Assembly: GCF_026343185.1 (NCBI RefSeq)
Contig: NZ_JAPEMA010000003.1
Location: forward strand, 186,001 to 250,000
Origin: Streptomyces sp. NBC_00091
Lineage (GTDB): Bacteria; Actinomycetota; Actinomycetes; Streptomycetales; Streptomycetaceae
Direction of reading: 5' to 3'
Length of the DNA stretch: 64,000 bases
The position numbers and the translations under genes are program-made. Position 1 is the stretch's first letter. Each line of letters starts with the position of its first letter. The notes below the pieces were generated by a model that had not been told where the DNA came from, made no database searches, and worked only from the letters and a program-made list of their open reading frames with translations. Below, piece by piece: positions 32,890 through 55,594 of this stretch.

Positions 32890-33023
32890 CGGAGCAAGGG
32901 TTACCGCCCGGCTCGGGCTCCGAGAACCATTGCTGAATGTCCCATTCGAGCACCCCGCGGTGAATGCATTTCCCGCACTTTCCCGCGCTTTCTGCCCACC
33001 GCCACGGTGAGGAGCCGCCCGTC

Positions 33024-39435: not shown

Positions 39436-42081
39436 TCAGGCGGCGGCGCGCAGGCGCCACACCCCGGGCCGGGTCTCCGTCCAGTCCGGCAGCGGGAGGC
39501 CGCCGCGCACCTGGCGCAGCCAGCGGACCGCGTACGCCTCGCGCCGCCGGTCGCCGAGCCGCGCCGCCAGGGCCAGGCACTGCGCGAAGTGCGGCTCCGC
39601 GGCGGCGGGGCCTTCCGTCTCCAGGGCGAGCAGCGCCCGGACCCGGCGGGCCTCGTAGTGGTCGCGGGGGTCGGCGGGCGCCGCGTCGAGGACCCGGCCG
39701 ATCAGCCGGGCCGCGTCCGTGACGGCCGAGGAGTCCAGGCTCAGTTCGGCCAGGCCCGTCAGGGCGCGGTCGCGTTCGGGCCGGGCGTCGGCGCCGTCGG
39801 CGGCCCTCAGGGCCCGCCGGTAGAGCCCGCGGGCCGCGTCGGTCCGGCGGCGCTGCCAGGCCAGGTCGCCGAGCGAGCACAGCAGCCGGGACTGGGCGCC
39901 GAGGTCGCCGGAGCGTTCGGCCGCGTCCAGGGCCCGGGTGTGCGCGCGTTCCCAGTCGTCCCAGGCCGCGTGGGCCTCCAGGGGGGCGGTGAGGCCGTCG
40001 GCGAGGCGCACGGTGTGGACCCACAGTCCGGCCGCGTGGGCCCGGCCCAGGGCCGAGGTCAGTGCGGTGCGGCGGTGCGCGAACCACTCGGCGGCGTGCG
40101 GCAGTCCGTCGGCCTCCCGCGCCTCGGCGGCCAGGGCGTCGGCGAGCCGGGCCACGGCCCGCGCCACCTCGCCGGGGGGCTCCTCGGCGGTGAGGAGCTC
40201 GCCGGCCAGCAGCCGCCACAGCACGTGCAGGCGGTAGGCGCCGCGGGGTTCGGCCCGTAGCAGCCCGGCTTCCACGAGGCTCTCCAGCACGGCTTCGGCG
40301 GCCGGTTCGGGCGTACCGAACAGGGCGGCCGCGTCGGCGGTGGGGAAGGGGCCGTCGGGCAGCAGTCCGAGCAGCCGGAAGGCGCGCTTCAACGGTTCGC
40401 CGGCCTCGTCGTACGCGCCCCGCAGGGCCGCGTCCAGGCCGGGCTGCGCGGAGCGGAGTTCGGCGAGCCGGGCGTGCTCGTCGGACAGTCGGGCGGCCAG
40501 GGAGGCCACGGTCCAGTGCGGGCGCGCGGCCAGCCGGCCCGCGAGGGCCCGTACGGCCGACGGCAGCCGCCCGCAGGCCCCGACGACGGCGGCGCAGGCC
40601 CCGTCGGGGCCGTCGTCCTCCCCGTCGCGGCCCGACGCGGCCAGCAGCAGCCGGCGGGCCTGCGCCGGGGCGAGGACGTCCAGCAGGTGCACCCGGGTGA
40701 CCGGGACCGCCGGGGCCCTGCGGCCGGTCAGCAGCGCGGTGCTGCCGGGGGTCGTGGGCAGCAGGGGGCCGGCCTGCTCCGCGCCGGCGGCGCCGTCGAG
40801 CACGAACAGCATCCGCCGGCCCAGGGTGAGCCGGTCCAGGGTGCGGCGCAGCCCGTCGAGGTCGTCGGGCAGCGGCCCGGTGACGCGGCAGCGGCGCAGC
40901 AGCAGGGTGAGGGCGGCGGCGGGCCCGAGCGGTTCGCCGGTGTCGTCGCGCAGGGGCAGGAACACCCGGCCGTCGGGGAAGAGGTCGCCGGCGCGGTGCG
41001 CGGCGGCCAGGGCGAGGGCGGTCTTTCCGACGCCGGCGGGACCGGTGAGCGCGACGCAGCCGCCCGCCGGGACGTCCCGCAGGAGCGTCTCCAGCGCGGC
41101 GAGGTCCTCGTCGCGTCCGGTGAACAGCGGGTCGGACGGCGGGATTTCACCGACCGGCCCGGTGGCCGGCGGCAGTACGGGATCCGGCCCGGCGGCCGGC
41201 GTCGCGAACGGCCCGGCGGCCGGCATCGCGGCGGGTGCGGCCGTGGCGCGCCCGCCCGCGGTCGCCGCGGACCGCGCCGCGTCGGCGCGGTCCGGTACGG
41301 CGCCCGAGGGGCGCTGCAGTGCGGTGTCCCCGGCGAGGATCCGGCCGTGGAGCTGCTGGAGGGGCGGCCCCGGCTCGATCGCCAGTTCGTCGACGAGGGT
41401 GCGCCGCAGCCGGGCGAAGGCCTCCAGCGCGTCGGCCTGCCGGCCGGTGCGGTAGAGCGCCACCATCAGGTGGGCGTGGAACTCCTCGCGCATCGGCAGT
41501 TCGGTGGCGAGAGCCTGGAGTTCACCGACGAGGTCGTGGTGGCGGCCCAGTTGCAGGTCGGCCCGGATGCGCTGCTCCAGTGCGGCCGTGCGCAGTTCGC
41601 CGAGGCGGATCGCGGTGCTGTCGAGCAGCGCCCCGTGGGGGGTGTCGGACAGCAGGGGGCCGCGCCAGAGCGCGAGCGCGCGGCGCTGGAGGTCGGCGGC
41701 GGCCGGGGCGTCCTGGCGGGCCATGGCGGCGCGGCCCCGGGCGTGCAGGTCCTCGAAGGCGGTCAGGTCCAGCCGGTCCGGGTCCAGCCGCATGAGGTAG
41801 CCGGGCGGCCGGGTGACCAGGCCGTCGCGGCCCGCGTCGGGGTCGGCGGCGTGCAGGAGCTTGCGCAGCTGCGAGATGTAGACCTGGAGCGTGGTCGTCG
41901 CGGTGCGCGGCGGGTCCTCGCCCCACAGTTCGTCGATGAGGCTGCCCACGGACACGATCTCGTTGGCCCGTACGAGCAGCGTCGCGAGCACCACGCGCAT
42001 CTTCGCCGCGCGGGGCGTCACGCGGTGCGCGTGCCGGCCGGCCGCGTCCACTTCCAGTGGCCCCAACACCCGAAATCGCAT
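39436..42081 (-). CDS. Large SARP/AfsR-type pathway regulator (SARP-BTAD, NB-ARC, TPR)
   Basis: 881 residues from the ATG at 42081. Order: an OmpR-type winged-helix SARP domain (MRFRVLGPLEV to about residue 95, with LQVYISQLRKLL as recognition region), a bacterial transcriptional activation domain (to about 255), a proline/alanine linker, an NTPase with Walker A GPAGVGKTALAL and a downstream LFVLDG, then helical repeats in the last 250 residues. AfsR-like activators bind direct repeats upstream of antibiotic genes. It diverges from the FAAL operon across 259 bp, and matB follows on the same strand. The repeats at 32871-32889 are possible targets. Confidence 0.93.
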   Translation of the reverse strand: MRFRVLGPLEVDAAGRHAHRVTPRAAKMRVVLATLLVRANEIVSVGSLIDELWGEDPPRTATTTLQVYISQLRKLLHAADPDAGRDGLVTRPPGYLMRLDPDRLDLTAFEDLHARGRAAMARQDAPAAADLQRRALALWRGPLLSDTPHGALLDSTAIRLGELRTAALEQRIRADLQLGRHHDLVGELQALATELPMREEFHAHLMVALYRTGRQADALEAFARLRRTLVDELAIEPGPPLQQLHGRILAGDTALQRPSGAVPDRADAARSAATAGGRATAAPAAMPAAGPFATPAAGPDPVLPPATGPVGEIPPSDPLFTGRDEDLAALETLLRDVPAGGCVALTGPAGVGKTALALAAAHRAGDLFPDGRVFLPLRDDTGEPLGPAAALTLLLRRCRVTGPLPDDLDGLRRTLDRLTLGRRMLFVLDGAAGAEQAGPLLPTTPGSTALLTGRRAPAVPVTRVHLLDVLAPAQARRLLLAASGRDGEDDGPDGACAAVVGACGRLPSAVRALAGRLAARPHWTVASLAARLSDEHARLAELRSAQPGLDAALRGAYDEAGEPLKRAFRLLGLLPDGPFPTADAAALFGTPEPAAEAVLESLVEAGLLRAEPRGAYRLHVLWRLLAGELLTAEEPPGEVARAVARLADALAAEAREADGLPHAAEWFAHRRTALTSALGRAHAAGLWVHTVRLADGLTAPLEAHAAWDDWERAHTRALDAAERSGDLGAQSRLLCSLGDLAWQRRRTDAARGLYRRALRAADGADARPERDRALTGLAELSLDSSAVTDAARLIGRVLDAAPADPRDHYEARRVRALLALETEGPAAAEPHFAQCLALAARLGDRRREAYAVRWLRQVRGGLPLPDWTETRPGVWRLRAAA

Positions 42082-42340
42082 GCAGCCCCCGTTCCTCGGC
42101 ACTCCGGTGGCACGGGTGGCGGCAGACTCCCCCAGCTGCCCGGCCCTCGTCACCCTAGGGCCGGGCGCACCCCCGGCTTCGGACAGCCGGACCCCTGATC
42201 CGGCGACGCGCACCCTGGCCCGGGGCGGCCGGGGACCCGCAAGCCATGCTTTAGGCGCGGCGAGGAGCATGCCGAGGCGTTGGCGGCAGGGGCGCCGGGC
42301 GTTCGGCAGTTGCCCCGGATGCGCCAGAAGGGGGCTGACG
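42082..42340. promoter_or_regulatory. Divergent promoter region between SARP gene and FAAL operon
   Basis: 259 bp without a gene. It contains a CCCTAGGG palindrome at 42153-42160, the shared motif at 42239-42254 and, at its right end, the AAGGGGG ribosome binding site that decides the TTG start of the FAAL gene. Confidence 0.55.
42239..42254 (+). promoter_or_regulatory. Shared motif GCAAGCCnnGCTTTAG upstream of FAAL operon
   Basis: Reads GCAAGCC-AT-GCTTTAG. The same 14 defined bases recur at 62659-62674 upstream of the carboxylase gene, in the same orientation and at a similar distance (86 versus 66 bp to the start codon). A weaker copy lies upstream of the PKS genes. Probably a binding site for a cluster regulator. 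Confidence 0.6.
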
Positions 42341-44146
42341 TTGACTGGATTCGCTACGTTCACCGATGTGCTCCGCGGCCGGGCCGCGGAACTCGGCGAG
42401 CGCGACGCTCACGTGTTCCTCGGTGACGCCCCGGGCGCCGCCGCCGAGCACCTCACGTACGGCGAGCTGGACCGGGCGGCCCGGGCCATCGCGGTGCGGC
42501 TGCGCGAGCACGGCGCCCTGGGGCAGCCGGTGCTGCTGCTGTACCCGCCGGGCCCCGGGTTCCTGAAGGCGTTCGCCGGCTGTCTGTACGCCGGCGCCGT
42601 CGCCGTGCCCGCCCCGCTCCCCGGTGACCGGGGCGAGCGGCTGCAGCGCGTGTCGGGGATCATCCGCGACACCGGCGCGCAGCTGGTGCTGACCGACTCC
42701 GCCCACGCCCCCGACGTGTCGCTGTGGCTCGCCATGGCGGGCCGGGGCGAGACGGTGTGCCTGGCCACCGACGTGGAGGAGGGGCTGAACGCCGAGGCCT
42801 GGCAGCCGCCCCGCACCGGCCCGGACGACCTGGCGTTCCTCCAGTACACCTCGGGTTCGACCTCCCGGCCGCGCGGGGTGATGGTCAGTCACCGCAACCT
42901 CCTCGCCAACATGGAGGCCATGCGCAACGTCCTGGGCTCCACCGCCGAGGACGTGTTCGGCAGCTGGCTGCCGCACTACCACGACATGGGACTCATCTGC
43001 CATCTGCTGCACCCGCTGTGGCTGGGCACCTCGTCGGTGCAGATGTCCCCCACCGCCTTCGTCAAGCGGCCGGTGCGCTGGCTGCGCTCGATCGGCGAGT
43101 ACGGGGTGACCATCGGCGGCGGCCCCAACTTCTGCTACGACCTGTGCCTGCGCCGGATCACGGACGAGCAGCTCGCCGGCCTGGACCTGAGCAGCTGGCG
43201 GCTGGCGATCAACGGCGCCGAACCGGTGCGCCACCAGACCCTGGAGGCCTTCGCCGAGCGCTTCGCCGCGGCCGGTTTCCGCCGCGGGAGCCTCTTCCCG
43301 GCCTACGGGCTCGCCGAGGCCACGCTCGTCGTGTCCGGCGGCACGCCCGGCGAAGGCCCGCGCACCCTGACCGTCGACGCGGCCGGCCTCGAGTACGACG
43401 AGCTGCGCCCGCCGCGCCCCGGCCGGCCGGTGCGGACCCTGGTCGGGAGCGGCACCGTACGCGACTTCGCCGTGCGGATCGTGGAGCCGGTGATCGGCGG
43501 CGAGGTGCCCGCGGGCCGGGTCGGGGAGATCTGGGTGCGCGGCGACAGCGTCGCCCAGGGCTACTGGCGCCGTCCCACCGACACCGCCCGTACCTTCCAC
43601 GCCATGGTGGACGACGGGGACAGCGGCTTCCTGCGCACCGGCGACCTCGGGGTGATCGACGGGGACGAGCTGTACGTCACCGGCCGGCTCAAGGAAATGA
43701 TCATCCTCAACGGGCGCAACATCTATCCGCAGGACGTCGAGTGGGCGGTGCGCGAGACGGAGCCGGCCCTCGGGGCGGGCCAGGGCGCCGTGTTCACCGT
43801 GGACGCGGACCGCGAGCAGCTCGTCGTCGTGCACGAGGTGCGCCCCGAGAACGCCGACTGGGAGACGCTGCGCGCCCTCGCCCGGCGCATCCAGATCCTC
43901 ATCGGCCAGGACTTCGACGTGCCCGCGGCCAATGTGCTCCTGGTGCGGCCGGGCACCCTGCGCCGTACCACCAGCGGCAAGATCCAGCGGACCCTGATCC
44001 GCAAGCTGTTCCTGGAGGGCGAGGTCAGCGGCGAGTACGAGGTCCTCGACCCCGCCGTGCGCGCCCTGGTCCGTCCGCGCGACACGCTGCTCGGCAACGA
44101 CCTGCTGCGGCCCTCCGCCCGCGCCGCCGCGGAGACGGCGTGGTGA
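42341..44146 (+). CDS. Fatty acyl-AMP ligase (FAAL) loading an acyl chain onto an ACP
   Basis: 601 residues from a TTG at 42341 with AAGGGGG six bases upstream; no ATG or GTG nearby has such a signal. ANL-family motifs: YTSGSTSRPRGVMVSHRN, YHDMGLICHLL, PAYGLAEATLVV, RTGDLGVID, and the C-terminal Lys in TTSGKIQRTLIRK. The YHDMGL and AYGLAEATL signatures and the length are those of FAALs, which make acyl-adenylates and pass them to an ACP rather than to CoA. First gene of a coupled operon; its stop overlaps the next start (GTGA). The likely partner is the ACP at 45987. FAAL, acyl dehydrogenase and ACP trios occur in lipopeptide clusters such as ramoplanin and friulimicin, where they supply unsaturated acyl-ACPs. 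Confidence 0.9.
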   Translation: MTGFATFTDVLRGRAAELGERDAHVFLGDAPGAAAEHLTYGELDRAARAIAVRLREHGALGQPVLLLYPPGPGFLKAFAGCLYAGAVAVPAPLPGDRGERLQRVSGIIRDTGAQLVLTDSAHAPDVSLWLAMAGRGETVCLATDVEEGLNAEAWQPPRTGPDDLAFLQYTSGSTSRPRGVMVSHRNLLANMEAMRNVLGSTAEDVFGSWLPHYHDMGLICHLLHPLWLGTSSVQMSPTAFVKRPVRWLRSIGEYGVTIGGGPNFCYDLCLRRITDEQLAGLDLSSWRLAINGAEPVRHQTLEAFAERFAAAGFRRGSLFPAYGLAEATLVVSGGTPGEGPRTLTVDAAGLEYDELRPPRPGRPVRTLVGSGTVRDFAVRIVEPVIGGEVPAGRVGEIWVRGDSVAQGYWRRPTDTARTFHAMVDDGDSGFLRTGDLGVIDGDELYVTGRLKEMIILNGRNIYPQDVEWAVRETEPALGAGQGAVFTVDADREQLVVVHEVRPENADWETLRALARRIQILIGQDFDVPAANVLLVRPGTLRRTTSGKIQRTLIRKLFLEGEVSGEYEVLDPAVRALVRPRDTLLGNDLLRPSARAAAETAW

Positions 44147-45930
44147 GCGCCGTCGCCGTCGCCGCCGGGCCGGCCCCCCGGGCGCCGGTGCGGCGGCCCG
44201 CGCCGTCCCCGGAGTCGACGAGCGGCCGGGTCCGGGCCGCCGCGCTGGAGGCCCTGCTCGGCGACCCGGCGGCGCCCGGCAACCCGGCCGGGCACCGCGC
44301 GCTGCTCGCTTCCGACCAGGCGGCCGCGCTGTCCCCGGAGGCGGAGGGGCTGCTCGACGACTTCGGGATGCACCGCGAGTTCGTTCCGCGCGAGCTCGGC
44401 GGCCGCTTCGACTCCCCCGAGGGCCTGCTGCGGGTGATGCGGCCGGTGTTCCGCCGGGACGTGTCCCTCGGCATGGGCTACGGCATGACCACCTTCATGG
44501 CCGCCTCCGACGTGTGGATGCGCGGCAACGAGGAGCAGCGGTCGTGGCTGGGCGGCCTGCTCCTGGGCGGCTCGAAGGCGGCGATAGCCCAGCACGAGAC
44601 CGCGCACACCAACGACTTCGTCCGCAACCAGATCTCCGCGGACCCGGCCCCCGGCGGCGGCCTGTCGGTCACCGGGGCCAAGCCGGTGGTCAACAACCTG
44701 CACCGGGCCGACGCCCTGGTGCTGTTCTGCCGTACCGGCGGGCACTTCCCCGGCGGGACGCAGAGCGCCCTGCTGCTGGACCCGCACACCCTGCCCGCGG
44801 ACCGCTACCGCACCGAGCGGCGGCCCGCCGCGGTGGGCCTGCGGTCCTGCTTCTTCTCGGGCGTGCGCTTCGACGACTGCCCGGTGCCCGCCGACGCCTT
44901 GCTCGGCGCGCCCGGCAGCGGGGTCGCGACCTCGCTCCAGTCGTTCCAGATGAGCCGTACGCTGATGGCCTCCCTGTCGGTGGCCGCCGTGGACGCGAGC
45001 CTGCGCACGGCCGTGCTGGTGGACCGTCAGCGGGGGCCCGGCGCGGCCGGCACGGCGCCGGTGGACCCGCAGCACACGGCGAACACCCTGACCGGGGCGT
45101 TCGTGAACCTGCTCCTGTACGACTGCCTGGCGGTCGTCGCCACCCGGGCGCTGCACCTGCTGCCGGCCGAGACCAGCGTGTACTCGGCGGCCGTGAAGCT
45201 GCTGCTGCCGCGGGTGCTGATCGAGACGATGTACGACCTGTCCACCGTCCTGGGCTCGCAGCTGTACACGCGGGACGGCACCGTCGGCGTCCTGCAGAAG
45301 CACATCCGGGACGTGCCGGTGATCAGCCTCGGCCACGCGGGGACCGTCGCCTGCCAGGCGACGATCATCCCGCAGCTGAAGCAGCTGGCGAGCCGCTCCT
45401 GGTTCACCGAGGAGGAGGCCCCCGCCGCGCTGTTCCAGCCCGACGCGCCCCTGCCGGCGTTCCGCTACGACGCGCTCGCGCTGGCCAGCGGACGCGACAG
45501 CCTCAGCGCCTCGCTGCTGGCCGCCGCCGCGGAACTGCCGGGCCGCGACCCGGTGGAGCGGGCCCTGCGCACGATGACGGAGCACCTCGTCGAGGAGCTG
45601 CGGGATCTGCGCCGGCGGGTGCTCGCGCTGCCGCCGCTGGACGGCGGGACGCCGGTGGGACCGGCCTGGTTCGCGCTGACCGACCGTTACGTCCTGGTCC
45701 TGGCGGCGGCGGCCGTGCTCGGCGTCCGCCGCCACAACCGCCACGGCCTCGACCCGTTCCTGGCCGATCCGGCCTGGGCGGCGGCCGCCCTGCACCGCAT
45801 CACGTGCAGACTGGGCACCGAGCCCGTGGAGCTGCCCCCCGAGTGCCTGGCGCGCGTCCACCAGGAGGTCCTGGCCCGCTTCGGGGACCGGCGCAGCTAC
45901 GACCTGCACAACACCCCGCTTCCCGGCTGA
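44143..45930 (+). CDS. Acyl-CoA dehydrogenase-like flavoenzyme, probably acting on acyl-ACP
   Basis: 595 residues from a GTG overlapping the FAAL stop. The acyl-CoA dehydrogenase fold is visible: AQHETAHTNDFVRNQ in the middle domain, a beta-domain with FFSGVRFDDCPVPADALLG, then QSFQMSRTLMAS leading into the C-terminal helices. At almost 600 residues it is much longer than catabolic enzymes (about 380), as is usual for the dehydrogenases beside FAALs in lipopeptide clusters. Inferred role: FAD-dependent introduction of a double bond into the FAAL-loaded acyl-ACP. An FkbI-like role in oxidising a glyceryl-ACP is possible because an FkbH gene lies in the same operon, but the neighbouring FAAL and ACP make acyl desaturation more likely. 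Confidence 0.82.
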   Translation: MSAVAVAAGPAPRAPVRRPAPSPESTSGRVRAAALEALLGDPAAPGNPAGHRALLASDQAAALSPEAEGLLDDFGMHREFVPRELGGRFDSPEGLLRVMRPVFRRDVSLGMGYGMTTFMAASDVWMRGNEEQRSWLGGLLLGGSKAAIAQHETAHTNDFVRNQISADPAPGGGLSVTGAKPVVNNLHRADALVLFCRTGGHFPGGTQSALLLDPHTLPADRYRTERRPAAVGLRSCFFSGVRFDDCPVPADALLGAPGSGVATSLQSFQMSRTLMASLSVAAVDASLRTAVLVDRQRGPGAAGTAPVDPQHTANTLTGAFVNLLLYDCLAVVATRALHLLPAETSVYSAAVKLLLPRVLIETMYDLSTVLGSQLYTRDGTVGVLQKHIRDVPVISLGHAGTVACQATIIPQLKQLASRSWFTEEEAPAALFQPDAPLPAFRYDALALASGRDSLSASLLAAAAELPGRDPVERALRTMTEHLVEELRDLRRRVLALPPLDGGTPVGPAWFALTDRYVLVLAAAAVLGVRRHNRHGLDPFLADPAWAAAALHRITCRLGTEPVELPPECLARVHQEVLARFGDRRSYDLHNTPLPG

Positions 45931-45986
45931 CGGGCAACGGCCCCGACCACCGCTTCCCCCTTCGCCCGCACGCAAGGAGTCCAGGG

Positions 45987-46274
45987 ATGTCCCTGCCCGT
46001 GTCGCCGCACAGCGCGGCCCCGCTGCACCACTGGCTGACCGACCGCCTCGCCGTCTACCTCGACCGGCTGCCGGACAGCATCGACCCCACCGTGCCGCTC
46101 GCCGAGTACGGCATGGACTCGGTGGGGGCGCTGAGCCTGTGCGGGGACATCGAGGACACGTTCCACATCGCCGTGGACCCGTCGCTGGCCTGGGACCACC
46201 CGACCGTCGTCGCGCTGGTCGCCCACCTCACCGCCCGGGGCGTGACGGTTCCGGCCGCGGGGGTCTCCCCGTGA
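45987..46274 (+). CDS. Acyl carrier protein (partner of the FAAL)
   Basis: 95 residues. ATG at 45987 with AAGGAG upstream, 56 bp after the dehydrogenase: the only real gap in this operon. Phosphopantetheine site YGMDSVGALSL with Ser at about residue 46. It lies between the FAAL/dehydrogenase pair and the single-module PKS and overlaps the PKS start (GTGA), which suggests it carries the acyl chain from ligase to ketosynthase. Confidence 0.9.
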   Translation: MSLPVSPHSAAPLHHWLTDRLAVYLDRLPDSIDPTVPLAEYGMDSVGALSLCGDIEDTFHIAVDPSLAWDHPTVVALVAHLTARGVTVPAAGVSP

Positions 46275-49228
46275 GCTCCGCCTCCGTCGCCGTGGTCGGG
46301 CTCGACTGCGTCTTCCCGGGCGCGCCGGGCCCCGACGCCTACTGGGACCTGCTGATGCGCGGCGGCGACGCGACCGGGGAGCAGCCCGGCCCGCGCAGGT
46401 TCGGGCCGGGGTACGAGACGCCGGTGCGCGGCGGTTTCATCGACGACGCCGACGTGTTCGACAACGACTTCTTCACCGTCTCGCCGCGCGAGGCCGCGGC
46501 GATGGACCCGCAGCAGCGGCTGCTGCTCCAGTGCGCGTGGCGGGCCCTGGAGGACTCGGGGCGCTCCCCGCGGTCCCTGGCGGGCGGCGACACCGGGGTG
46601 TTCGTCGGCATGATGGGCAGCGAGTGGGGCCAGCTGCACCTGGGCGACTACGGGCGCGTGACCCCGCAGCTGGGCGCCGGGTCCAGCGCCGGCATGGCCG
46701 CCAACCGCATCTCGTACCACCTCGACCTGAAGGGGCCGAGCCTGTCCGTGGACACGGCCTGCTCCTCCTCGCTGGTCGCCGTGCACCTGGCGGTCAACTC
46801 ACTGCTGTCCGGGGAGTGCGGGACGGCGCTGGCCGGCGGGGTCAACCTGATCCTGACCCCGGCGCTGGGGCTGGTGTACGGGCAGATGGGGCTGGCCTCG
46901 CCGGACGGCCGGTGCAGGCCCTTCAGCGCCGACGCGAACGGCATCGCCCGCAGTGACGGCGTCGGGGTGGTGGTGCTGCGGCGGCTGGAGGACGCACTCG
47001 CCGACGGGCAGCGGGTCTACGCCGTCATCCGGGGCACCGCCGTCAACCAGGACGGGCGCAGCAACGGCGTCACCGCGCCGAACCGGCACTCCCAGCGGGA
47101 GGTCGTCGCGGCCGCGTACCGCCGGGCCGGGGTCACCCCCGACCAGGTGCGGTTCGTCGAGGCCCACGGCACGGGCACGGCGCTCGGCGACATCATCGAG
47201 TGCGGGGCCCTGGGCGAGGTGCACGACGTACCGCGCGAGGAGCCGTGCGCGATCGGCTCCGTCAAGGGCAATCTCGGGCACACGGAGGGGGCCGCGGGCA
47301 TCGCCGGGCTGATCAAGGTGGCGCTCGCGCTGCACCACCGGATCGTGCCCGCGAGCCGGTTCGCGGACCGCGAGAACCCCCAGCTGCGGCTCGCCGAACG
47401 GGGGCTGGCCCTGCTGAAGGTCCCGGTGCGGCTGCCCGCCGGCGAGGTCGTGGCGGGCGTGAGCAGCTTCGGCATGGGCGGGACCAACGCGCACGCGGTG
47501 CTCGCCGCCGCGCCCCGTACGGCCCGCACCGGGCGCCGCCGGGCGGCGGCCGCGCCGGCCGGGGTGTTCACGGTCTCGGCCGACACCCCGGAGGCGCTGC
47601 GCCGCAACCTCGCCGCGCAGGCGGAGGCGGTGGCCGCCCGCCCGCGCGGGGACGCCGCCGCGCTGTGCTGGACCAGCAACCGGGTCAAGACCGGGCTGCC
47701 CTACCGGGCGGCGTTCACCGCCACCGACACCGTCGAGCTGGCGGCGGCGCTGCGCGGGGCGGCCGAGGACGGGCGGCTCGCCGCCGGGATCGCCGACCGG
47801 GCCTGGCGTCCGCCGGTCATCGGGTTCCTCTTCACCGGCCAGGGCGTCCAGGAGCCCGGGATGACGGCCGCCCTGTACCGGCAGTCGCCGCTGTACCGGC
47901 GCCGGCTCGACGAGGCCGACGCGGCGCTCGCCCCGCACCTGGGCGGCTCGGTGCGCGACCTGATCCTCGGCGGGGATCCGGCCCTGCACCGCACCCGCTG
48001 GGCGCAGCCCGCCCTGTTCGCCGTCGGCCATGCGCTGGCGGCCACGCTGAGCGGCCTCGGCGCGGGGCCGCACGTCGTACTGGGGCACAGCGTCGGGGAG
48101 TTCGCGGCCGCCGTGACCGCCGGGGTGCTCACGCTGGACGAGGCGGCCCGGCTGGTCGCGGAGCGGGCACGGCTGATGGACGCGCTGCCCGAGGGCGGCG
48201 GCATGCTGTCGGTGCGGGCGGGGCGCGAAGCGGTCGAGGAGTTCCTCACCACCGGTCCGGGGGTGTCCCTCGCCGCGGTCAACGGCCCGCGGAACACGGT
48301 CCTGTCGGGCGGGCTCGCGGAGCTGGAGCGGGTCGCCGGCGTGCTCCGCGAGCGCGGCACGCACTGCCGTACGGTCGGCGTCTCGCACGCCTTCCACTCG
48401 CCGCTGATGGCTCCCGTCCTGGAGCCGCTGGCCGCCGCCGCCGCGGGGATCACGCCCGCCGCGCCGCGCATCCCCGTCGCCTCCACCCGGTACGGGCGGC
48501 TGCTGGCCGACGAGCCGATGGACGGCGCCTACTGGGCCGGGCAGGCGGCCGGGCCGGTGCTGTTCGCGGACGCGCTGGCCGACCTGGTGGCACGGACCGC
48601 CCCGACCGCGCTCGTGGAGATCGGCCCGGCGCCGCAGCTGATCCAGCTGGTGGGCCGGTCCGGGCTGGCCGACGGGATCCGGCTGCTGCATCCGGCGCCG
48701 GGCCGGGATGCGACGGCCCGCGACCTGGCCGAGACCGTCGCCGCCCTGTACCGCTCCGGGCTGGAGCCGCAGTGGGACGAGCTGTACGAGCCCGCCTGGC
48801 GCACCACCGAGCGGCTGCCCCCGTACGCCTTCTCCACCGAGCACCGCTTCTGGCACACCGCGACCGCCCGCCCGCAGGCCCCCGCGGCCCCGTCCGCGCC
48901 GGGACCCGCCCCGGCGGCCCCGGAGCGGACCCGCCCCGACGACGGCGAGGGCGAGGGCGAGGGGAGCCAGGACCCGGTGCTGGCCGCCGTGGTGCGGGCC
49001 GTCGTGGAGGTGGGCGGCTATCCGCCCGAACGCGTCGGGCGCCGGTCCCGTTTCTACGAGGACCTCGGCTTCGATTCTGTGATGATCATGCAACTCAAGG
49101 ACCGGATCGAGACCGCGCTGCCACAGGCCGGCGGTATCGCGGTGCAGCAACTGCTGCCCGCGCTGCGTTCGGTGGGCACCCTGGCCGACTTCGTCGGCGA
49201 GTGGATCAGTGTGGGGGTACGACCGTGA
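46271..49228 (+). CDS. Single-module type I polyketide synthase, KS-AT-ACP
   Basis: 985 residues from a GTG overlapping the ACP stop. [10 protein letters not shown] (Cys164), EAHGTGT, GNLGHTEG. AT: GHSVGE (Ser607) and HAFH, so malonyl type. A glutamate/glycine-rich linker (DDGEGEGEG) leads to an ACP with LGFDSV (Ser936). There are no reductive domains and no thioesterase, so it should add malonyl units without reduction and leave a 3-ketoacyl-ACP. It has no coiled-coil docking helix like those of the large PKS subunits, which fits free ACP partners. The acceptor is probably the FAAL-derived acyl-ACP, and its 3-ketoacyl product is what a tetronate-type KASIII would need. Its stop overlaps the KASIII-like start. 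Number of rounds unknown; one is the simplest. Confidence 0.9.
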   Translation: MSSASVAVVGLDCVFPGAPGPDAYWDLLMRGGDATGEQPGPRRFGPGYETPVRGGFIDDADVFDNDFFTVSPREAAAMDPQQRLLLQCAWRALEDSGRSPRSLAGGDTGVFVGMMGSEWGQLHLGDYGRVTPQLGAGSSAGMAANRISYHLDLKGPSLSVDTACSSSLVAVHLAVNSLLSGECGTALAGGVNLILTPALGLVYGQMGLASPDGRCRPFSADANGIARSDGVGVVVLRRLEDALADGQRVYAVIRGTAVNQDGRSNGVTAPNRHSQREVVAAAYRRAGVTPDQVRFVEAHGTGTALGDIIECGALGEVHDVPREEPCAIGSVKGNLGHTEGAAGIAGLIKVALALHHRIVPASRFADRENPQLRLAERGLALLKVPVRLPAGEVVAGVSSFGMGGTNAHAVLAAAPRTARTGRRRAAAAPAGVFTVSADTPEALRRNLAAQAEAVAARPRGDAAALCWTSNRVKTGLPYRAAFTATDTVELAAALRGAAEDGRLAAGIADRAWRPPVIGFLFTGQGVQEPGMTAALYRQSPLYRRRLDEADAALAPHLGGSVRDLILGGDPALHRTRWAQPALFAVGHALAATLSGLGAGPHVVLGHSVGEFAAAVTAGVLTLDEAARLVAERARLMDALPEGGGMLSVRAGREAVEEFLTTGPGVSLAAVNGPRNTVLSGGLAELERVAGVLRERGTHCRTVGVSHAFHSPLMAPVLEPLAAAAAGITPAAPRIPVASTRYGRLLADEPMDGAYWAGQAAGPVLFADALADLVARTAPTALVEIGPAPQLIQLVGRSGLADGIRLLHPAPGRDATARDLAETVAALYRSGLEPQWDELYEPAWRTTERLPPYAFSTEHRFWHTATARPQAPAAPSAPGPAPAAPERTRPDDGEGEGEGSQDPVLAAVVRAVVEVGGYPPERVGRRSRFYEDLGFDSVMIMQLKDRIETALPQAGGIAVQQLLPALRSVGTLADFVGEWISVGVRP

Positions 49229-50274
49229 CAGCAGTGACCGAGACCGCCCTGTACGTGGCGGGCACGGGCACCGCCCTGCCCGGCGACCCGGTGGACAACA
49301 CCCGGCTGGGCAAGATGTTCGGGATCAGCGAGGAGTGGATCGACCTCTTCGTGGGGACCCGTACCCGCCACTTCTGCTGGGACCTGGGCACCGGCACCCT
49401 CACCCACAGCCTCGCCGACCTGTGCGCCGAGGCCGCCGGGCGGGCCCTGGCCAACTCCGGGCTCGCCCCCGCCGACCTCGACTTCCTGATCCTGACCACC
49501 GCCACGCCCGACACCCTGCTGCCCACCACCGCGACCGTGGTGGCCGACCGGCTGGGCCTCAGCCACCTGCCCGCCTTCCAGCTCCAGGCGGGCTGTTCGG
49601 GCGCCGTACAGGCGCTGGACGTAGCCCGCGCGCTGCTCGCGGGCGGCCACCGCGCGGGCCTCGTGGTCGGCGGGGACGTCACCGACCGGTTCCTCGACCC
49701 GGGGCGCGAGGCGCTCAGCCTGCCGACCGAGGAGCTGGTCAACTACGTGCTGTTCGGCGACGGGGCGGGCGCGGCCGTGGTCGGCACGGAGCCCGTCGGC
49801 GAGGCCATCGCCGTACGGAGCCTGCTGCACCGGTTCACCGGGCGGGGCCGCTCCCCCGGCCAGATCGTCGACTGGCAGGGCGTCGCCCGCCACGACGCGG
49901 GCCGGCAGATGCTGTTCGAGGACTACAAGGCCATCGAGGAGAGCGTGCCGCCCATGGCCTCGGAGATCTTCTGGGAGCTGCTGGCCGCCACCGGCTGGAG
50001 CCGCGAGGACCTCCACTACGTGCTGCCCCCGCAGCTGTCGGGCCGGATGACGGCCCGCATCACCGAGCACCTGGACGTGCCGGAGCTGCGCGAGGTGTCC
50101 TGTGTGGCCGACACCGGGAACACGGGCAACGCCCTGCCGCTGATCCAGCTCGACCGGCTCGCCGGAGAGCTGGGCGAGGGGGAGCGGGCCCTGGCCGTGA
50201 TCGTCGAGTCCAGCAAGTGGATCAAGGGCGGGCTGGCGCTGGAGCGCGTCCCGGAGACGGACTGCACCGGATGA
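49225..50274 (+). CDS. KASIII-like enzyme lacking the catalytic His, tetronate-type coupling candidate
   Basis: 349 residues from a GTG overlapping the PKS stop. The KASIII fold is clear and the nucleophile Cys124 (QAGCSGAVQ) and Asn299 (DTGNTGN) are present, but the PHQAN motif reads PPQLSG (Pro269 where His is expected). Loss of His argues against ordinary decarboxylative condensation. The order KASIII, FkbH, ACP is that of tetronate clusters such as RK-682 and tetronomycin, where a KASIII-like enzyme couples glyceryl-ACP with a 3-ketoacyl thioester. Inferred role: joining the chain from the KS-AT-ACP protein, or from the large PKS, to glyceryl-ACP. Stop overlaps the FkbH start (ATGA). Confidence 0.8.
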   Translation: MTAVTETALYVAGTGTALPGDPVDNTRLGKMFGISEEWIDLFVGTRTRHFCWDLGTGTLTHSLADLCAEAAGRALANSGLAPADLDFLILTTATPDTLLPTTATVVADRLGLSHLPAFQLQAGCSGAVQALDVARALLAGGHRAGLVVGGDVTDRFLDPGREALSLPTEELVNYVLFGDGAGAAVVGTEPVGEAIAVRSLLHRFTGRGRSPGQIVDWQGVARHDAGRQMLFEDYKAIEESVPPMASEIFWELLAATGWSREDLHYVLPPQLSGRMTARITEHLDVPELREVSCVADTGNTGNALPLIQLDRLAGELGEGERALAVIVESSKWIKGGLALERVPETDCTG

Positions 50275-52286
50275 CCGCCCCCACGACACCCACCGCCGCC
50301 GCCACCGGGGCCGGGGCCGGGGCAGCCGCGCCCGCAGCCGGTTCCCGTACCGGCCCGGCCGACCCGGTGCGCGAGCTGCGCGCGCTGCACCGCGCGGGCC
50401 GGCTCGCCGAGGCCTGGCCCCGCGTCGCCCCGCTGCTGGCCGAGCTGACCGACCACGGGGACCGGGAGCCCGAGGCCGTCCGCACCGACCTGGTGCGCGC
50501 CGGCCGGGTCCTGGCCGCGCTCCCGGCGGCCGGGGTCCTCGCCGCGCACCCGGACACGCCCCTGGTCACCGTGGCCGTCACCGGGCACTCCACCCTGGTC
50601 CAGCTCACCGACCCGCTCGTCGCCGAGCTGGCCCGGCACGGGCTGCTCTCCCGGGTGGTGCACGGGGACCACGGCGCCTACCTGCGCGACCTGCACGACC
50701 CCGACGGCGAACTGCGCCGCCACCGCGCCGACCTGACCCTGTGCGTCCTCGACGCGGGCGCCGTCTTCGACGAGCTCCCCGAGCCCTGGACCTGGCAGGA
50801 CGTGGAGGCCGGCTGCGCCCGGCTGCTGGAGCGGCTGCGCTCGGTCACGGCCGCCCACGCCGCGGACGCCGCCGGCACCCTCGTGCTGAACACCCTGCCC
50901 CTGCCCCGCACCCGGCTCCAGCAGCTCGTCGGACAGCGGGAGCGGGCCCTGCTCGGCGCGGTGTGGCGGGAGTTCAACGCCCGGCTGCTGCGACTGGCGG
51001 CCGAGCACCCCACGGCGGCCGTGGTCGACCTGGATCCGCTGATCGCCGACGGCGGCCCGGCCGCCGACCCGCGCCTGGCCCTGTACACCCGCGCCCCGTA
51101 CACCGAGCAACTGCTCGCCGCCTACGCCCGGGAGGCCGTGCACGTGCTGCGCGCCCGCCGCGGCATGACCCGCAAGTGCCTGGTCCTGGACCTCGACGAC
51201 ACCCTGTGGGCGGGTATCCTCGGCGACGACGGACCCGAGGGGATCACCGCCGCCGCGGGCACCCTGGCCGGGGAGCCGCACGCGGCCCTGCAGCGCACCG
51301 CGCGCCAGCTCGCCGCCCAGGGCGTGCTGCTCGCCGTCAGCAGCAAGAACGACACCGGACCGGTCCTCGGCGTGCTCCGCGACCACCCGGACATGGTGCT
51401 GCGCGAGCGGGACTTCGTACGGATCCACGCCAACTGGCAGCCCAAGGACGGCAACCTGCGGGAGATCGCCGCCGCCCTCGGCATCGGCACCGACGCGCTG
51501 GTCTTCGCCGACGACTCCCCCGCCGAGCGCGCCCTGGTGCGGGCCCGGGTCCCCGGCGCCGCCGTCGTGGCGCTGGGCACGGAGCCGGCCCTGCACGTCG
51601 GCCGACTGCTGGCCGACGGCTGGTTCGACACGCCCCGGCTGACCGGCGACGACCTCGCCCGCACCGCCCGCTACCACGAGGCGGCCGCCCGCGGGGAGCT
51701 GGAGCGCGGCAGCGGATCGTACGAGGAATACCTGCGCGACCTGGGCGTCCGCGTGCGCATCGCGCCGCCGCAGCCGCACGAGCTCGACCGGATCGCCCAG
51801 CTGTCGCTGCGCACCAACCAGTTCAACCTCACCGGCGAACGGCTCGGCGCGGACCGCGTCGCCGCGCTCGCCGCCGACCCCGCGGGCCTGCTGCTCGCGG
51901 TGCACGTCGGCGACCGGTTCGGCGACAGCGGCCTGGCCGGCGCGGTCCGCGCCCGGTACGCCGCGGACGGGCTGCGCCTGGACGGTTTCTGGCTCAGCTG
52001 CCGGGTCTTCGCGCGCGGGGTCGAACAGGCCGTCCTCGCGACCCTGCTGGCGCACGCGGCCGGCCGCGGCCTGCCCGCCGTACACGCCCTCCACCGGCCG
52101 ACCGCCAAGAACACCAGGGCGGCCGGCTTCTACCCCTCACTGGGCTTCACCGAGACCGCCAGGGACCCTGACGGCTCGCTGCACTACCGCCACGACCTGG
52201 CGCGACTGCCCCCCGTACCCGACCACTTGACGACCGATTCACGCCTCGGAGGGGACGACGATGAGCCTGCCGGAACCACCCGCTGA
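50271..52286 (+). CDS. FkbH-like protein, probable glyceryl-ACP synthase
   Basis: 671 residues. The N-terminal third is a variable SGNH-like segment. The HAD-type domain begins near residue 300 with KCLVLDLDDTLWAGILGDDG, the hallmark of FkbH proteins, followed by SSKND and FADDSPAE. The C-terminal third is GNAT-like (LSLRTNQFNLTG onwards). FkbH enzymes take 1,3-bisphosphoglycerate, dephosphorylate it and pass glycerate to a dedicated ACP. That glyceryl-ACP goes to tetronates or, with FkbI/FkbK/FkbG, to methoxymalonyl-ACP. No O-methyltransferase is seen in the window, and a KASIII-like gene and an ACP flank it, which favours the tetronate-like use. Overlaps the next ACP gene by 26 bp. Confidence 0.9.
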   Translation: MTAPTTPTAAATGAGAGAAAPAAGSRTGPADPVRELRALHRAGRLAEAWPRVAPLLAELTDHGDREPEAVRTDLVRAGRVLAALPAAGVLAAHPDTPLVTVAVTGHSTLVQLTDPLVAELARHGLLSRVVHGDHGAYLRDLHDPDGELRRHRADLTLCVLDAGAVFDELPEPWTWQDVEAGCARLLERLRSVTAAHAADAAGTLVLNTLPLPRTRLQQLVGQRERALLGAVWREFNARLLRLAAEHPTAAVVDLDPLIADGGPAADPRLALYTRAPYTEQLLAAYAREAVHVLRARRGMTRKCLVLDLDDTLWAGILGDDGPEGITAAAGTLAGEPHAALQRTARQLAAQGVLLAVSSKNDTGPVLGVLRDHPDMVLRERDFVRIHANWQPKDGNLREIAAALGIGTDALVFADDSPAERALVRARVPGAAVVALGTEPALHVGRLLADGWFDTPRLTGDDLARTARYHEAAARGELERGSGSYEEYLRDLGVRVRIAPPQPHELDRIAQLSLRTNQFNLTGERLGADRVAALAADPAGLLLAVHVGDRFGDSGLAGAVRARYAADGLRLDGFWLSCRVFARGVEQAVLATLLAHAAGRGLPAVHALHRPTAKNTRAAGFYPSLGFTETARDPDGSLHYRHDLARLPPVPDHLTTDSRLGGDDDEPAGTTR

Positions 52287-52542
52287 TCTCCCGGGCTTCC
52301 TCGCCCTGATCGGTGAGGAACTCGGACTGGAACTGACCGAGGAGCAGGCCCGCGCCGACCTGGACACCCTGCCGTCCTGGGACTCGGTGCACCTGCTCCG
52401 GCTGGTCATGCTGATCGAGCAGGAGACGGGGCGCCGCGTGCCCGTCTCCGCCGTGCTGCGGGCCCGCAGCATCGCGCAGATCCACGCCGAGGTGCTGGCC
52501 GTCACCGGCGGCCGGGCCCTGACCCCGGGCGGTCTGCTGTGA
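52261..52542 (+). CDS. Acyl carrier protein, probable glyceryl carrier
   Basis: 93 residues with the site LPSWDSVHLLRLVMLIE (Ser42). The WDSV form and the position right after FkbH fit the small ACPs that accept glycerate. Ribosome binding site GGAGGGG inside the end of the FkbH gene. Its stop overlaps the PPTase start (GTGA). Confidence 0.9.
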   Translation: MSLPEPPADLPGFLALIGEELGLELTEEQARADLDTLPSWDSVHLLRLVMLIEQETGRRVPVSAVLRARSIAQIHAEVLAVTGGRALTPGGLL

Positions 52543-53387
52543 ACGGTCCGGCGTCCGTGGCGCCGGGCGAGCCGATCGCGGTGCGCGCCGACGGCACCGA
52601 CTGGGAGGCGGTCCGCGCCGACCTGCGCACCTACGGCACGGCCCTGGTGCACGGCACCCTCGACGACTGGCGCCCGAAGGACGCCGACGGTCCCGCGCTG
52701 CGCGCCGTACTGGGCCGCGACTGGGCCCGCTACAGCGGCATGGCGCACGAGGACATCCGGGAGCGGTACGCGGCCTCGCGGCGGCTGCTCAAACACGCGG
52801 CGGCGGCGGCCCTGCACGCGGACGCGGCGGACCTCGAACTCACCTACGGACCCACGGGGCGCCCGTACCTGCGCGGCTGCGACCAGATCGACATCAGCCT
52901 CAGCCACACCGGCAACCTGCTGCTGGTCGGCCTGACCACGCGCGGGCTCATCGGCGTCGACGCGGAGCTCACGGACCGCCAGATCTACAGCAAGGGCCTG
53001 GACCGGCACATCTGCACCCCGGCCGAGCGCCTGAACCTCGCCGAGCTGGACCCGGCGGAGCGCAATCCGCGGCTGGTGCGGCTGTGGACCCTGAAGGAGG
53101 CCTACAGCAAGGCCATCGGGCAGGGCATGCAGTTCCGGTTCACCGAGTTCGGCTTCGGGCCGGACGGCCGGCCGGTGCGCGTGCACCGGCCGGACGGCAC
53201 CCCGGGCGCGGGCGCCGAATGGGCCTTCCGTACGTACTACCTCGACGTGGGCGGCGTCGCGTTCTGCGTCAGCGCGGCCGTCTACGACGCGGGGCTGGGC
53301 CGCACCCTCGACACCGAGATCACCACGATGCTCGACGCCGAGGCCGCCGAGGCCCTGGGGCGGGCGCTGCGGGCCGCAGCCGGCTGA
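52539..53387 (+). CDS. 4'-phosphopantetheinyl transferase, Sfp type
   Basis: 282 residues from a GTG overlapping the ACP stop. Sfp-type motifs: TYGPTGRPYL, ISLSHTGNLLLVGL, the Mg-binding IGVDAE (about residues 138-143) and WTLKEAYSKA (about 182-191). It converts apo-ACP and PKS carrier domains to holo forms using CoA. Last gene of the coupled operon; it may serve both the two free ACPs and the giant PKS proteins. The gene converges on the AfsA-type gene with 31 bp between stops. Confidence 0.9.
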   Translation: MNGPASVAPGEPIAVRADGTDWEAVRADLRTYGTALVHGTLDDWRPKDADGPALRAVLGRDWARYSGMAHEDIRERYAASRRLLKHAAAAALHADAADLELTYGPTGRPYLRGCDQIDISLSHTGNLLLVGLTTRGLIGVDAELTDRQIYSKGLDRHICTPAERLNLAELDPAERNPRLVRLWTLKEAYSKAIGQGMQFRFTEFGFGPDGRPVRVHRPDGTPGAGAEWAFRTYYLDVGGVAFCVSAAVYDAGLGRTLDTEITTMLDAEAAEALGRALRAAAG

Positions 53388-53418: not shown

Positions 53419-54411
53419 TCAGTGGTCCTCCACGACCACGGTGATCGCCTCCAGGACGGTACGGCCCGCCTGGGTGAGGGTCAGGGTGAGGGGCGCCGTA
53501 CGCCGGCCCGCGGCGTCCCGCCCCGGCCTGCCGGTCACCGCGGCGCAGCGCAGCGGCAGGTCGGCCTCGGCGTATCCGCGGACGTGGACCTGGAGCGAGG
53601 CGAGGGCGCTGCGCCCGGGCTCGAAGCCGTAGCCGCGCCCCACGGCCAGCAGGGAGGTCTGGCGCAGGGATTCCAGCAGCGCCGGGGCGGGCACGTGCCC
53701 GTCCCGCGCGGCGCTCTCGCCGAGCCAGTGCGGGGGCACGGCCACCCCGACGGACAGCCGGCCGTCGCGGGGTCCGGAGGGGTCGTGCAGCAGGACGTTG
53801 GCCGGATCGCGGCGCCCCACCTCCTCTGCCTCGACCGGGGCGCCGGCGGGTGCCGCGCGGTCCTGTCCGGCCATCGAGGAGAGCGCGGCCAGCCTGCTGT
53901 GCTCGCGGTGGTTGCGGTGCACCATCGGGGCGAGGAAGACCAGGTTCGCCGTGCCCGTGCCGCAGCGCACGTCGTCGATCTCCAGCGTGGTACGGAACTC
54001 CAGCGCGCGCGGCACCCCGTCGATGACCTTGTCGGGGCGGACGCTCATCGTGGTGGCCAGCCGCCCGGGGGCGGCCCCGGGCCGGGTGCGCCACAGCCCG
54101 ATGTCGGTCACCTCGATGCCCACCTGGTAGAAGATCCCCGTGCGCTTGCCGGGCACGCGGAAGTGGGTGCGGCCGATGAACTCGCCGACCTCGCGGACCA
54201 TGTCGGCCGCCGCCACCACGTCGTGGAAGTGCCCCGGGCCGTCGTCGAGCAGCGGGTGACCGGACGTCAGGTCGCCCAGCAGGACGAACTCCTCCGCCAC
54301 GGGCGGCGCGGCGGCCCGGCCGTGCCGCTCCCAGGGCTGCGGACGGTGCACCAGGTGCCGTGCGGCAGCCCGGGCGGTAGTCGGTCCCGCGGCGATGACG
54401 GCGGTGTCCAT
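53419..54411 (-). CDS. AfsA-type gamma-butyrolactone synthase family protein
   Basis: 330 residues. ATG at 54411 with GGAGGGAGG eight bases upstream. Two AfsA hotdog repeats: the first begins near HLVHRPQPWE and contains FIGRTHFRVPGK; the second starts near RRDPANVLLHDP and ends with VHVRGYAEADLPLRC. AfsA proteins condense a 3-ketoacyl chain from ACP with dihydroxyacetone phosphate, the first step to A-factor-like signals. No TetR-type receptor and no butenolide phosphate reductase are present in the window. The product may be a hormone precursor, or the protein may have a role in making the cluster's own metabolite, since the next operon also handles 3-ketoacyl and C3 units. Confidence 0.87.
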   Translation of the reverse strand: MDTAVIAAGPTTARAAARHLVHRPQPWERHGRAAAPPVAEEFVLLGDLTSGHPLLDDGPGHFHDVVAAADMVREVGEFIGRTHFRVPGKRTGIFYQVGIEVTDIGLWRTRPGAAPGRLATTMSVRPDKVIDGVPRALEFRTTLEIDDVRCGTGTANLVFLAPMVHRNHREHSRLAALSSMAGQDRAAPAGAPVEAEEVGRRDPANVLLHDPSGPRDGRLSVGVAVPPHWLGESAARDGHVPAPALLESLRQTSLLAVGRGYGFEPGRSALASLQVHVRGYAEADLPLRCAAVTGRPGRDAAGRRTAPLTLTLTQAGRTVLEAITVVVEDH

Positions 54412-54516: not shown

Positions 54517-55563
54517 TCAGCTAGTGCCCGCGCCCGAGGGGACGAAGTCGGCGTCGAGCAGCCCGTACAGCGCGACGTTCACGCCGGTCTGGAAACGGCT
54601 CGTGGACTCCATCTCCTCCATGATCCGGGCGATGTGCCGGCGGCAGGTGCGTACCGACATGCCGAGCCGGCGGGCCACCATCTCGTCCTTGTGGCCCTGC
54701 GCCATGAGCCGGATGATCGACCGCTTCAGGTCGTCGGCGATGTCGGCGGTGTCCTCGGCGCCGGGCGTGAACGGCGTGGCCCCGGCCCACATGTGGTCGT
54801 AGACCTTGCACAGGAAGGCGACGAGCGTGGGCTCGCGGACCACGATCGCACCCGGGAAGCGGCCCTCCACGTGCTGCTCCGGAAGGAAGGCCACCTCCCG
54901 GTCGTAGACCACCATCCGGTCGATCACCTCGTCGGTGGTGCGCACTTCGGCGCCCTCGCCCGTGATCGCGCGGACGTAGTCGGCGGTCGCGAGGTCGCTG
55001 CGGACGGTGTGCTGGTACAGGTGCTTGATCTGGACGCCGCGCCGGAGCCGGTCGAGGGCCTTGGGCCGGGCCGCGTCCATGCGCTGGGCGTTGCGGGACC
55101 CTCCCGGCATGGCCGTCAGCAGCTCGTCGCGGCAGCGGGCCCCGCACTCGTCCAGCATCTTCTGGAGCACACCGACGTCGCTGACGACGTCGAAGGCCTC
55201 CGTCTGATTGCGTCTTCGGCGGTTCTCGAAGTACGCCGGCAGCAGCGCCAGCATCTGGGTCTTCACCCCGGTCACCGACTGCTGCTTCTCGCGGATCTCG
55301 GCTTCCACCGGTCCCACGAGGTCCGCGGCCGCGGCATCGGGGCTCACCGGCACCAGCGCGTCCGGGCGGCCCGGCATCGGGCGCAGCAGGCGGAGCTCGC
55401 CGAGCGCCTCCTCGATCCGGGCGGCCTCTGCCTCCGGCAGGTCCAGCGCGGCCGCGATCTCGGTTCGGACGAACCGGCCCAACAGGACGGCGTGGTGATA
55501 AGCGGATGCGCTTATGTCATCCAACTCGCCGAACGCGGACCCCTGCAGGGAACTTCCTGACAT
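54517..55563 (-). CDS. LuxR-family transcriptional regulator with N-terminal winged-helix-like region
   Basis: 348 residues from ATG 55563, preceded by a weak GGGGGTGG; an ATG six codons upstream (55581) is an alternative with no visible ribosome binding site. The C-terminal HTH (about residues 275-325) contains LMAQGHKDEMVARRLGMSVRTCRRHIARIMEEME. The N-terminal part (AAALDLPEAEAARIEEALGEL) resembles a TrmB/MarR-like helix-turn-helix, and the middle is a sensor-like region without an obvious ligand motif. This layout is common for orphan LuxR regulators in Streptomyces. Transcribed towards the AfsA-type gene, 105 bp away, and divergent from the small exported peptide. Probably regulates these neighbours; the target is not shown. 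Confidence 0.82.
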   Translation of the reverse strand: MSGSSLQGSAFGELDDISASAYHHAVLLGRFVRTEIAAALDLPEAEAARIEEALGELRLLRPMPGRPDALVPVSPDAAAADLVGPVEAEIREKQQSVTGVKTQMLALLPAYFENRRRRNQTEAFDVVSDVGVLQKMLDECGARCRDELLTAMPGGSRNAQRMDAARPKALDRLRRGVQIKHLYQHTVRSDLATADYVRAITGEGAEVRTTDEVIDRMVVYDREVAFLPEQHVEGRFPGAIVVREPTLVAFLCKVYDHMWAGATPFTPGAEDTADIADDLKRSIIRLMAQGHKDEMVARRLGMSVRTCRRHIARIMEEMESTSRFQTGVNVALYGLLDADFVPSGAGTS

Positions 55564-55594
55564 CCCGTTTGCCACCCCCATGTGCTGACAGGAC

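Follow-up and report, generated by a model that had tools for sequence, protein, structure and literature searches.

Described counterparts and gene content of the operon

The RK-682 (rk) genes of Streptomyces resemble, in gene content, an operon at positions 42341-53387 of a 64,000-nucleotide stretch (the window) of contig NZ_JAPEMA010000003.1 of Streptomyces sp. NBC_00091. The rk genes likewise supply a KASIII (RkD), an FkbH-type protein (RkE), acyl carrier proteins (ACPs; RkC and RkF) and a beta-ketothioester donor. The end product of the RK-682 pathway is reportedly a 5-hydroxymethyl acyl-tetronate, and its chain is said to be derived from a fatty acid. The operon differs from the RK-682 genes in having a dehydrogenase-like gene between a fatty acyl-AMP ligase (FAAL) and the first ACP, from which an unsaturated chain is predicted, and in its LuxR/SARP/AfsA regulator set and its link to a modular polyketide synthase (PKS). 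Given the resemblance to RK-682, the logic of the operon is therefore not new in kind. An earlier note on this DNA knew of no pathway that joins FAAL-fed chain building to a KASIII/FkbH glyceryl unit; RK-682 does so in kind, and 68 of 101 related loci, types B and C described below included, fall in FAAL-fed groups.

Agglomerin (agg, Pantoea) likewise comes from an acyl-tetronate pathway, one with a comparable KASIII-FkbH-ACP trio. Agglomerin has the exomethylene pair Agg4/Agg5, and such proteins occur in type B loci and in none of the type A loci examined. Abyssomicin and tetromadurin share the KASIII-FkbH-ACP trio (PMC7489565), but in those pathways its task is to release the chain of a modular PKS, and 32 of the 33 KASIIIs from loci without a FAAL operon in view fall in a clade other than that of type A. 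The adjoining FAAL, acyl-CoA-dehydrogenase-like protein and ACP are the arrangement of lipid initiation genes and resemble those of rotihibin (rthH-I-J-K, S. scabiei; PMC8552735). Rotihibin has two dehydrogenases and hands its acyl chain to a nonribosomal peptide synthetase (NRPS), whereas the operon has one dehydrogenase. This protein shares 39-41% identity, and the same His, with the one at the RthJ place (the second rotihibin dehydrogenase).

We propose that the operon probably encodes a pathway that is complete in itself and releases a 3-(alkenoyl)-5-hydroxymethyl-tetronate as a free product, which would be a companion metabolite or autoregulator of varied polyketide clusters. Its genes are:

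42341..44146, + strand: FAAL with a TTG start (PF00501, 213.9 bits; best solved match 7r7f, 511 bits)
44143..45930, + strand: acyl-CoA-dehydrogenase-like protein, type b (family match; a His lines up with the usual catalytic Glu)
45987..46274, + strand: ACP1, predicted carrier of the FAAL product (PF00550, 55.7 bits, scanned from 45927; first ATG at 45987)
46271..49228, + strand: one-module PKS, KS-AT-ACP (Pfam domains; KS motif TACSSSL, AT motif HAFH)
49225..50274, + strand: KASIII, tetronate-forming type (5by7, 368.7 bits; motif; tree)
50271..52286, + strand: predicted FkbH glyceryl transferase/phosphatase (TIGR01686, 272.8 bits, cut-off 146.65)
52261..52542, + strand: ACP2, predicted glyceryl carrier, Ser in WDSV (PF00550, 22.5 bits, cut-off 20.8)
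52539..53387, + strand: phosphopantetheinyl transferase (PPTase; PF01648, 48.7 bits, cut-off 25)

The earlier note had described eight consecutive genes in this order with six of seven junctions overlapping, and both observations hold. Each gene has a family match and no internal stop in the window sequence. The arrangement is not a chance one, since the 22 type A loci repeat the order, and in 17 of them the gene caller reported all eight genes. Overlaps of 4 nt join FAAL to the dehydrogenase, ACP1 to the PKS, the PKS to KASIII, KASIII to FkbH and ACP2 to the PPTase, and FkbH overlaps ACP2 by 26 nt; only the dehydrogenase and ACP1, 56 nt apart, do not overlap. The PKS/KASIII overlap hinges on the choice of start, since the start chosen by the gene caller (49234) leaves a 5-nt gap, and the later start is also annotated in the relatives W1SF4 and NBC_01276. 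Two type A loci (L044 and L045) begin inside the operon, and in three (L023, L024, and L051) a gene missed by the caller was recovered by tblastn, the L051 dehydrogenase as a match in two pieces. Junction spacing in type A is mostly between -26 and about 70 nt, with a few values up to 149 nt (L051 apart).

The nearest relative, on plasmid NZ_CP108444.1 of Streptomyces sp. NBC_01276, is collinear with the window at 91-93% DNA identity (about 0.7 kb not compared). Between the two, dN/dS is 0.09-0.33 in seven genes; the ACP2 value of 0.88, over 93 codons, is not informative. Seven plasmid records hold at least 80% of the operon in one place, and the window, judged by its relatives, is perhaps plasmid-derived.

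The logic predicted in the earlier note finds support in the enzyme sequences: an acyl-ACP loaded by FAAL would be extended once with malonyl, its keto group would stay unreduced, and the chain would be coupled to glyceryl-ACP. FAAL would activate a fatty acid and load it onto ACP1; among NCBIfam families it scores best against fatty acyl-AMP ligases and PKS/NRPS proteins that contain a ligase domain of this sort, in no case above the curated cut-off. The KS-AT-ACP protein would add one malonyl unit and keep the 3-keto group: a Pfam scan found no KR, DH or ER domain in the module, and its AT motif HAFH is presumably of the malonyl type. These domains point to a beta-ketoacyl-ACP donor with an unreduced keto group, as in FabH-type acyl-tetronate pathways. 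FkbH was identified by TIGR01686 alone, the Pfam scan giving no match, and would transfer glyceryl from 1,3-bisphosphoglycerate to ACP2; FkbH and a discrete ACP, both above their family cut-offs, are the combination found in acyl-tetronate pathways.

KASIII would join the beta-ketoacyl and glyceryl units by C-C and C-O bonds, freeing an unsaturated relative of RK-682. Its best solved relative, 5by7 (the next scores 113.4 bits), is an entry described as a 3-oxoacyl-ACP synthase III; no paper naming 5by7 was found, and any closer naming was dropped. The His of the HQAN motif is replaced by Pro in LPPQL and the Cys is kept, as in all 102 aligned KASIIIs, those of modular-PKS loci included. The 5by7 match, the motif and the tree place the protein in the tetronate-forming group, in a comparison that did not contain the RkD sequence itself. 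The PPTase would arm the carriers, and no exomethylene step would follow.

The dehydrogenase-like flavoprotein would add a double bond to the chain, its alpha,beta position being a guess. In canonical acyl-CoA dehydrogenases the catalytic Glu lies in the C-terminal domain or else at the position that it takes in isovaleryl-CoA dehydrogenase. The operon protein appears to lack this residue: a His aligns without gaps to the Glu of IYEGT in 4n5f, and Ser/Thr aligns at the isovaleryl-CoA dehydrogenase position, both by alignment only, while the structure model has a pLDDT below 50 at 395-400, the region of the His. In the type b group, to which the window protein (44143-45930) and the one at the RthJ place belong, a His that aligns to the catalytic Glu is conserved; the partner type a has Asp.

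Related loci and the KASIII tree

A KASIII scan of genome contigs gave 258 pattern hits and 103 relatives, of which the best 80 were kept; 21 further loci came from 150 relatives of G001 (the NBC_01276 genome). The G070 KASIII, split across two contigs, was left out of the relatives search. The resulting 101 loci were sorted by hand into types A (22), B (34), C (9), D (3), and M (33); L026 and L090 have identical KASIIIs on contigs of the same length and are probably one locus, which leaves at most 33 distinct type B loci. Type A has the eight genes of the window. Type B mostly has two dehydrogenases together with an E2-like acyltransferase and an alpha/beta hydrolase (the agglomerin-type exomethylene pair), and in many type B loci FkbH lies at the other end. 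Type C is without the dehydrogenase and has an FrsA-like hydrolase in seven of nine loci, type D consists of three outliers, one of them a cyanobacterial metagenome-assembled genome (MAG), and type M has no FAAL operon in view, with other PKS hits in 26 of 33 loci. Among the 68 loci of the FAAL-fed groups, the FAAL is in view in 60, and eight on cut contigs were placed by other genes.

The KASIII tree (maximum likelihood, quick method, 102 rows) separated type A with the window (SH-aLRT 100), type C (100), type M (98; 32 of 33, L116 outside) and type B (89; 33 of 34, L036 outside). Each operon type has therefore retained its own KASIII, and the trio goes with this operon. Support for the deep branches is weak, with C joining M at 74.

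Exomethylene formation is attributed to the E2-like acyltransferase Agg4 and the alpha/beta-fold protein Agg5 (PMC7489565). Of the 34 type B loci, 31 have a relative of the S. scabiei E2-like protein and 24 one of the FrsA-like protein; for the 33 type M loci the figures are 23 and 22, and none of the 22 type A loci has either. Neither turned up in 83 sequences (1.85 Mb) from the surroundings of 19 type A loci, the window included, where a third hydrolase query gave only two matches, at 25-26% identity. Since type A has no exomethylene pair, its product is predicted to keep the 5-hydroxymethyl group.

Several individual loci may be recorded here. The type B operons of S. scabiei 87.22 (L079; NC_013929.1, 6961784-6982785) and S. 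stelliscabiei (L074) have two dehydrogenases, AfsA and SARP, and an exomethylene acyl-tetronate is their predicted product. S. longisporoflavus, which makes tetronasin, has a type B operon (L064). L094, from a Xenococcaceae cyanobacterium MAG, has the order FAAL, two dehydrogenase hits, ACP, PKS, KASIII, FkbH, ACP. On NZ_CP108444.1 a second ACP/KS-AT-ACP/long-chain acyl ligase group lies at 259999-266684, about 18 kb downstream of the operon.

Linkage to modular polyketide synthases and regulators

Linkage was examined in an extended type A set of 19 loci, comprising the window, 15 of the 22 type A loci and three plasmids (39-99 kb each), the other seven loci lying on short contigs or near contig ends. 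The comparison set consisted of six of 34 type B and six of nine type C loci, chosen for long contigs (59-101 kb each). With a modular PKS defined by a KS at least 60% identical to a window KS, 18 of the 19 type A loci had one within the examined span, against none of the 12 type B/C loci (Fisher p 9e-8, relatedness not corrected); by lineage, in our own grouping, the counts were six of seven vs. none of nine (p 0.0009). The type A flanks were lengthened after a first negative, and the B/C spans are still mostly as long or longer. The idea that type A operons stand alone was rejected, because the four of 11 genomes that seemed free of a PKS with the first flanks all showed one with longer flanks. 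KS matches below the threshold were seen in two type C loci (G067, two at 43%; G178, one at 29%) and one type B locus (G088, one at 28%). The operon lies about 8-31 kb from the PKS in 17 type A loci and about 45 kb from it in G078. Four of the seven operon plasmid records were inspected, and a modular PKS stands beside the operon in all four.

At least four kinds of linked PKS can be told apart by their marker genes, with G165 and G078 fitting none of them well:

Kind I (window, NBC_01276, W1SF4): KSQ loading, KASIII, 3-hydroxyacyl-CoA dehydrogenase, CCR
Kind II (NBC_00825, NBC_00523, CB01249): adenylation protein
Kind III (six genomes): PLP-enzyme and adenylation marker; KamA-type protein in the one genome checked
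Kind IV (four genomes): PLP decarboxylase, ligase and amidase, the full set in two and the amidase alone in two

The modules of kinds III and IV, where drawn, are mostly DH-KR. The modular PKS of the window begins with its own KSQ loading module, and the operon is therefore not needed as a starter supply. An alkylmalonyl-type supply set accompanies this PKS, the two together lying at 1-35818 and 61109-64000, with a KASIII (32964-34055), a 3-hydroxyacyl-CoA dehydrogenase (34052-35818), a CCR (61109-62566) and an acyl-CoA carboxylase beta subunit (from 62741), named after the NBC_01276 annotation. An AIR-synthase-related protein (60090-61112), also found in NBC_01276 and W1SF4, adjoins the CCR gene. 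The NBC_01276 frame of this PKS that lies at the greatest distance from the loading module (L124:14641-19899) stops after a KS and linker, without an ACP or thioesterase domain, and is followed by an NTF2-like protein and then a free thioesterase-like gene. The possibility that this PKS ends in its own thioesterase was rejected, the thioesterase being a separate gene.

The conserved unit exceeds the eight genes: a LuxR-type regulator, SARP, AfsA and an MFS transporter belong to it too. The features flanking the operon in the window, with counts of relatives in the extended type A set, are:

39436..42051, - strand: SARP (BTAD) regulator (PF03704, 151 bits, scanned 39436-42363; 17 of 19 loci)
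53419..54411, - strand: AfsA-related hotdog protein (PF03756, 50.5 bits, cut-off 24; 18 of 19)
54517..55581, - strand: LuxR-type regulator, HTHx (PF00196, 27.5 bits, cut-off 23.5; 19 of 19)
56110..58395, - strand: LuxR-type ATPase regulator (PF00196 and PF13191, scanned 56110-58695)
58694..60127, + strand: MFS transporter (PF13347, scanned 58460-60127; 15 of 19)

The flanks behind these counts are unequal, and G054 is hardly covered on the side where the regulators lie. An earlier count had made AfsA and SARP seem rare in type A (seven and five of 22 loci, with flanks of at most about 10 kb) and was overturned by the wider flanks. Both lie within 10 kb in 19 of 34 type B loci; within the same distance, none of the nine type C loci has a relative covering most of AfsA or of SARP. 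Gamma-butyrolactone signaling pairs AfsA with a TetR-type receptor. The AfsA-related protein is present in the window, and no TetR family was found among the window proteins scanned; a TetR-like protein is annotated in NBC_01276 at 253463-254110, just past the window end.

Role of the predicted product

Because the cassette is kept with its regulators near PKSs of differing kinds, its product is most likely a co-regulated companion or an autoregulator and not a part of the polyketide. The earlier note had allowed that the operon might supply part of the main polyketide, and it seems unlikely to us that the neighboring modular PKS has its product decorated with, or partly built from, an acyl-tetronate or glyceryl-bearing acyl group of the operon. 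What stands of that suggestion is the link itself, which is real in 18 of 19 type A loci and seen in none of the 12 type B/C loci; the SARP, AfsA and MFS genes are shared as well, and release is unexplained in NBC_01276, where the PKS frame most distant from the loading module ends after its KS. The suggestion is weakened by the pairing of one operon type with at least four kinds of PKS, which would need a common pendant, by the window PKS having its own KSQ loading module, and by the lack of a modular PKS in the type B and C loci examined. Moreover, no transfer enzyme was seen in the operon, and its KASIII lies in a FAAL-operon clade, apart from the KASIIIs of modular-PKS loci. These findings agree better with a free companion product or a signal than with a pendant common to all the polyketides.

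A signaling role, which the earlier note had raised in the form of a signal system with AfsA, is a reading to which we give little credence by itself. In it the acyl-tetronate, or a butenolide that AfsA derives from that 3-ketoacyl-ACP, would act as an autoregulator, be sensed by the adjoining regulators and switch on the linked polyketide cluster. PMC12304814 describes AfsA-like enzymes as joining a beta-keto thioester and a dihydroxyacetone unit in a condensation. The frequency of the LuxR-type regulator, AfsA and SARP in the extended type A set and the company of different PKSs are as a signal module would have them, and the TetR-like protein of NBC_01276 is a possible receptor. However, AfsA with SARP is a common regulatory pair, and it goes with the operon even without a PKS: the pair occurs in the 19 type B loci noted above, yet none of the six type B genomes examined has a modular PKS. 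The type C loci show no such AfsA or SARP relatives, and the proteins scanned in the window include no TetR family. A portable type A cassette is also possible, though we hold it doubtful: one operon lineage, with its near-constant LuxR-type/SARP/AfsA set, would be paired with at least four modular polyketide clusters and make either an autoregulator, KASIII and AfsA being competing outlets of one 3-ketoacyl-ACP, or an obligate partner compound.

It is highly improbable that FkbH and ACP2 make a methoxymalonyl extender for the main PKS, the remaining genes being an unrelated lipid-tail cassette. FkbH and a discrete ACP do occur in both kinds of pathway (PMC7489565), and NBC_01276 has a methyltransferase at the far end of the PKS, beyond the window. 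However, no methyltransferase family, and hence no O-methyltransferase, was found in the scanned proteins of the window. FkbH also keeps KASIII and ACP2 as partners in the operon, even where it has moved to the other end, as in many type B loci, and KASIII carries the motif of tetronate loci.

Other points weigh against a free acyl-tetronate as companion or autoregulator. A modular PKS is almost always nearby, which might mean that its polyketide receives material from the operon, and the linkage was gauged against 12 type B/C loci. One of the 19 extended type A loci, G042, shows no modular KS in the 99 kb examined, and the nearest other KS is about 52 kb from the operon end. Desaturation itself is uncertain because the dehydrogenase is without the usual Glu base, and the FAAL-fed groups do not form a single clade in the tree. 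The gene set, its conservation, the motifs, the clades and the linkage were observed directly, whereas all of the chemistry and the role of the product are deduced from sequence.

In the open-licence papers searched, no description of a FAAL operon making a tetronate was found, nor any paper combining at least three of FkbH, KASIII, tetronate and FAAL. The main text of a 2025 FAAL review makes no mention of tetronate, RK-682, FkbH or KASIII, and tetronate together with AMP ligase occurred in one review only, where the relevant passages concern two separate compounds. The analysis brings to notice a group of acyl-ACP dehydrogenases with His at the expected catalytic Glu. If the proposed pathway is correct, fatty-acid-fed tetronate pathways of types A, B and C would be widely distributed without a description in that literature, and product classes would be predictable for many Streptomyces genomes, including S. 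scabiei 87.22 (type B, exomethylene). A small tetronate would then have been paired repeatedly with different polyketide clusters.

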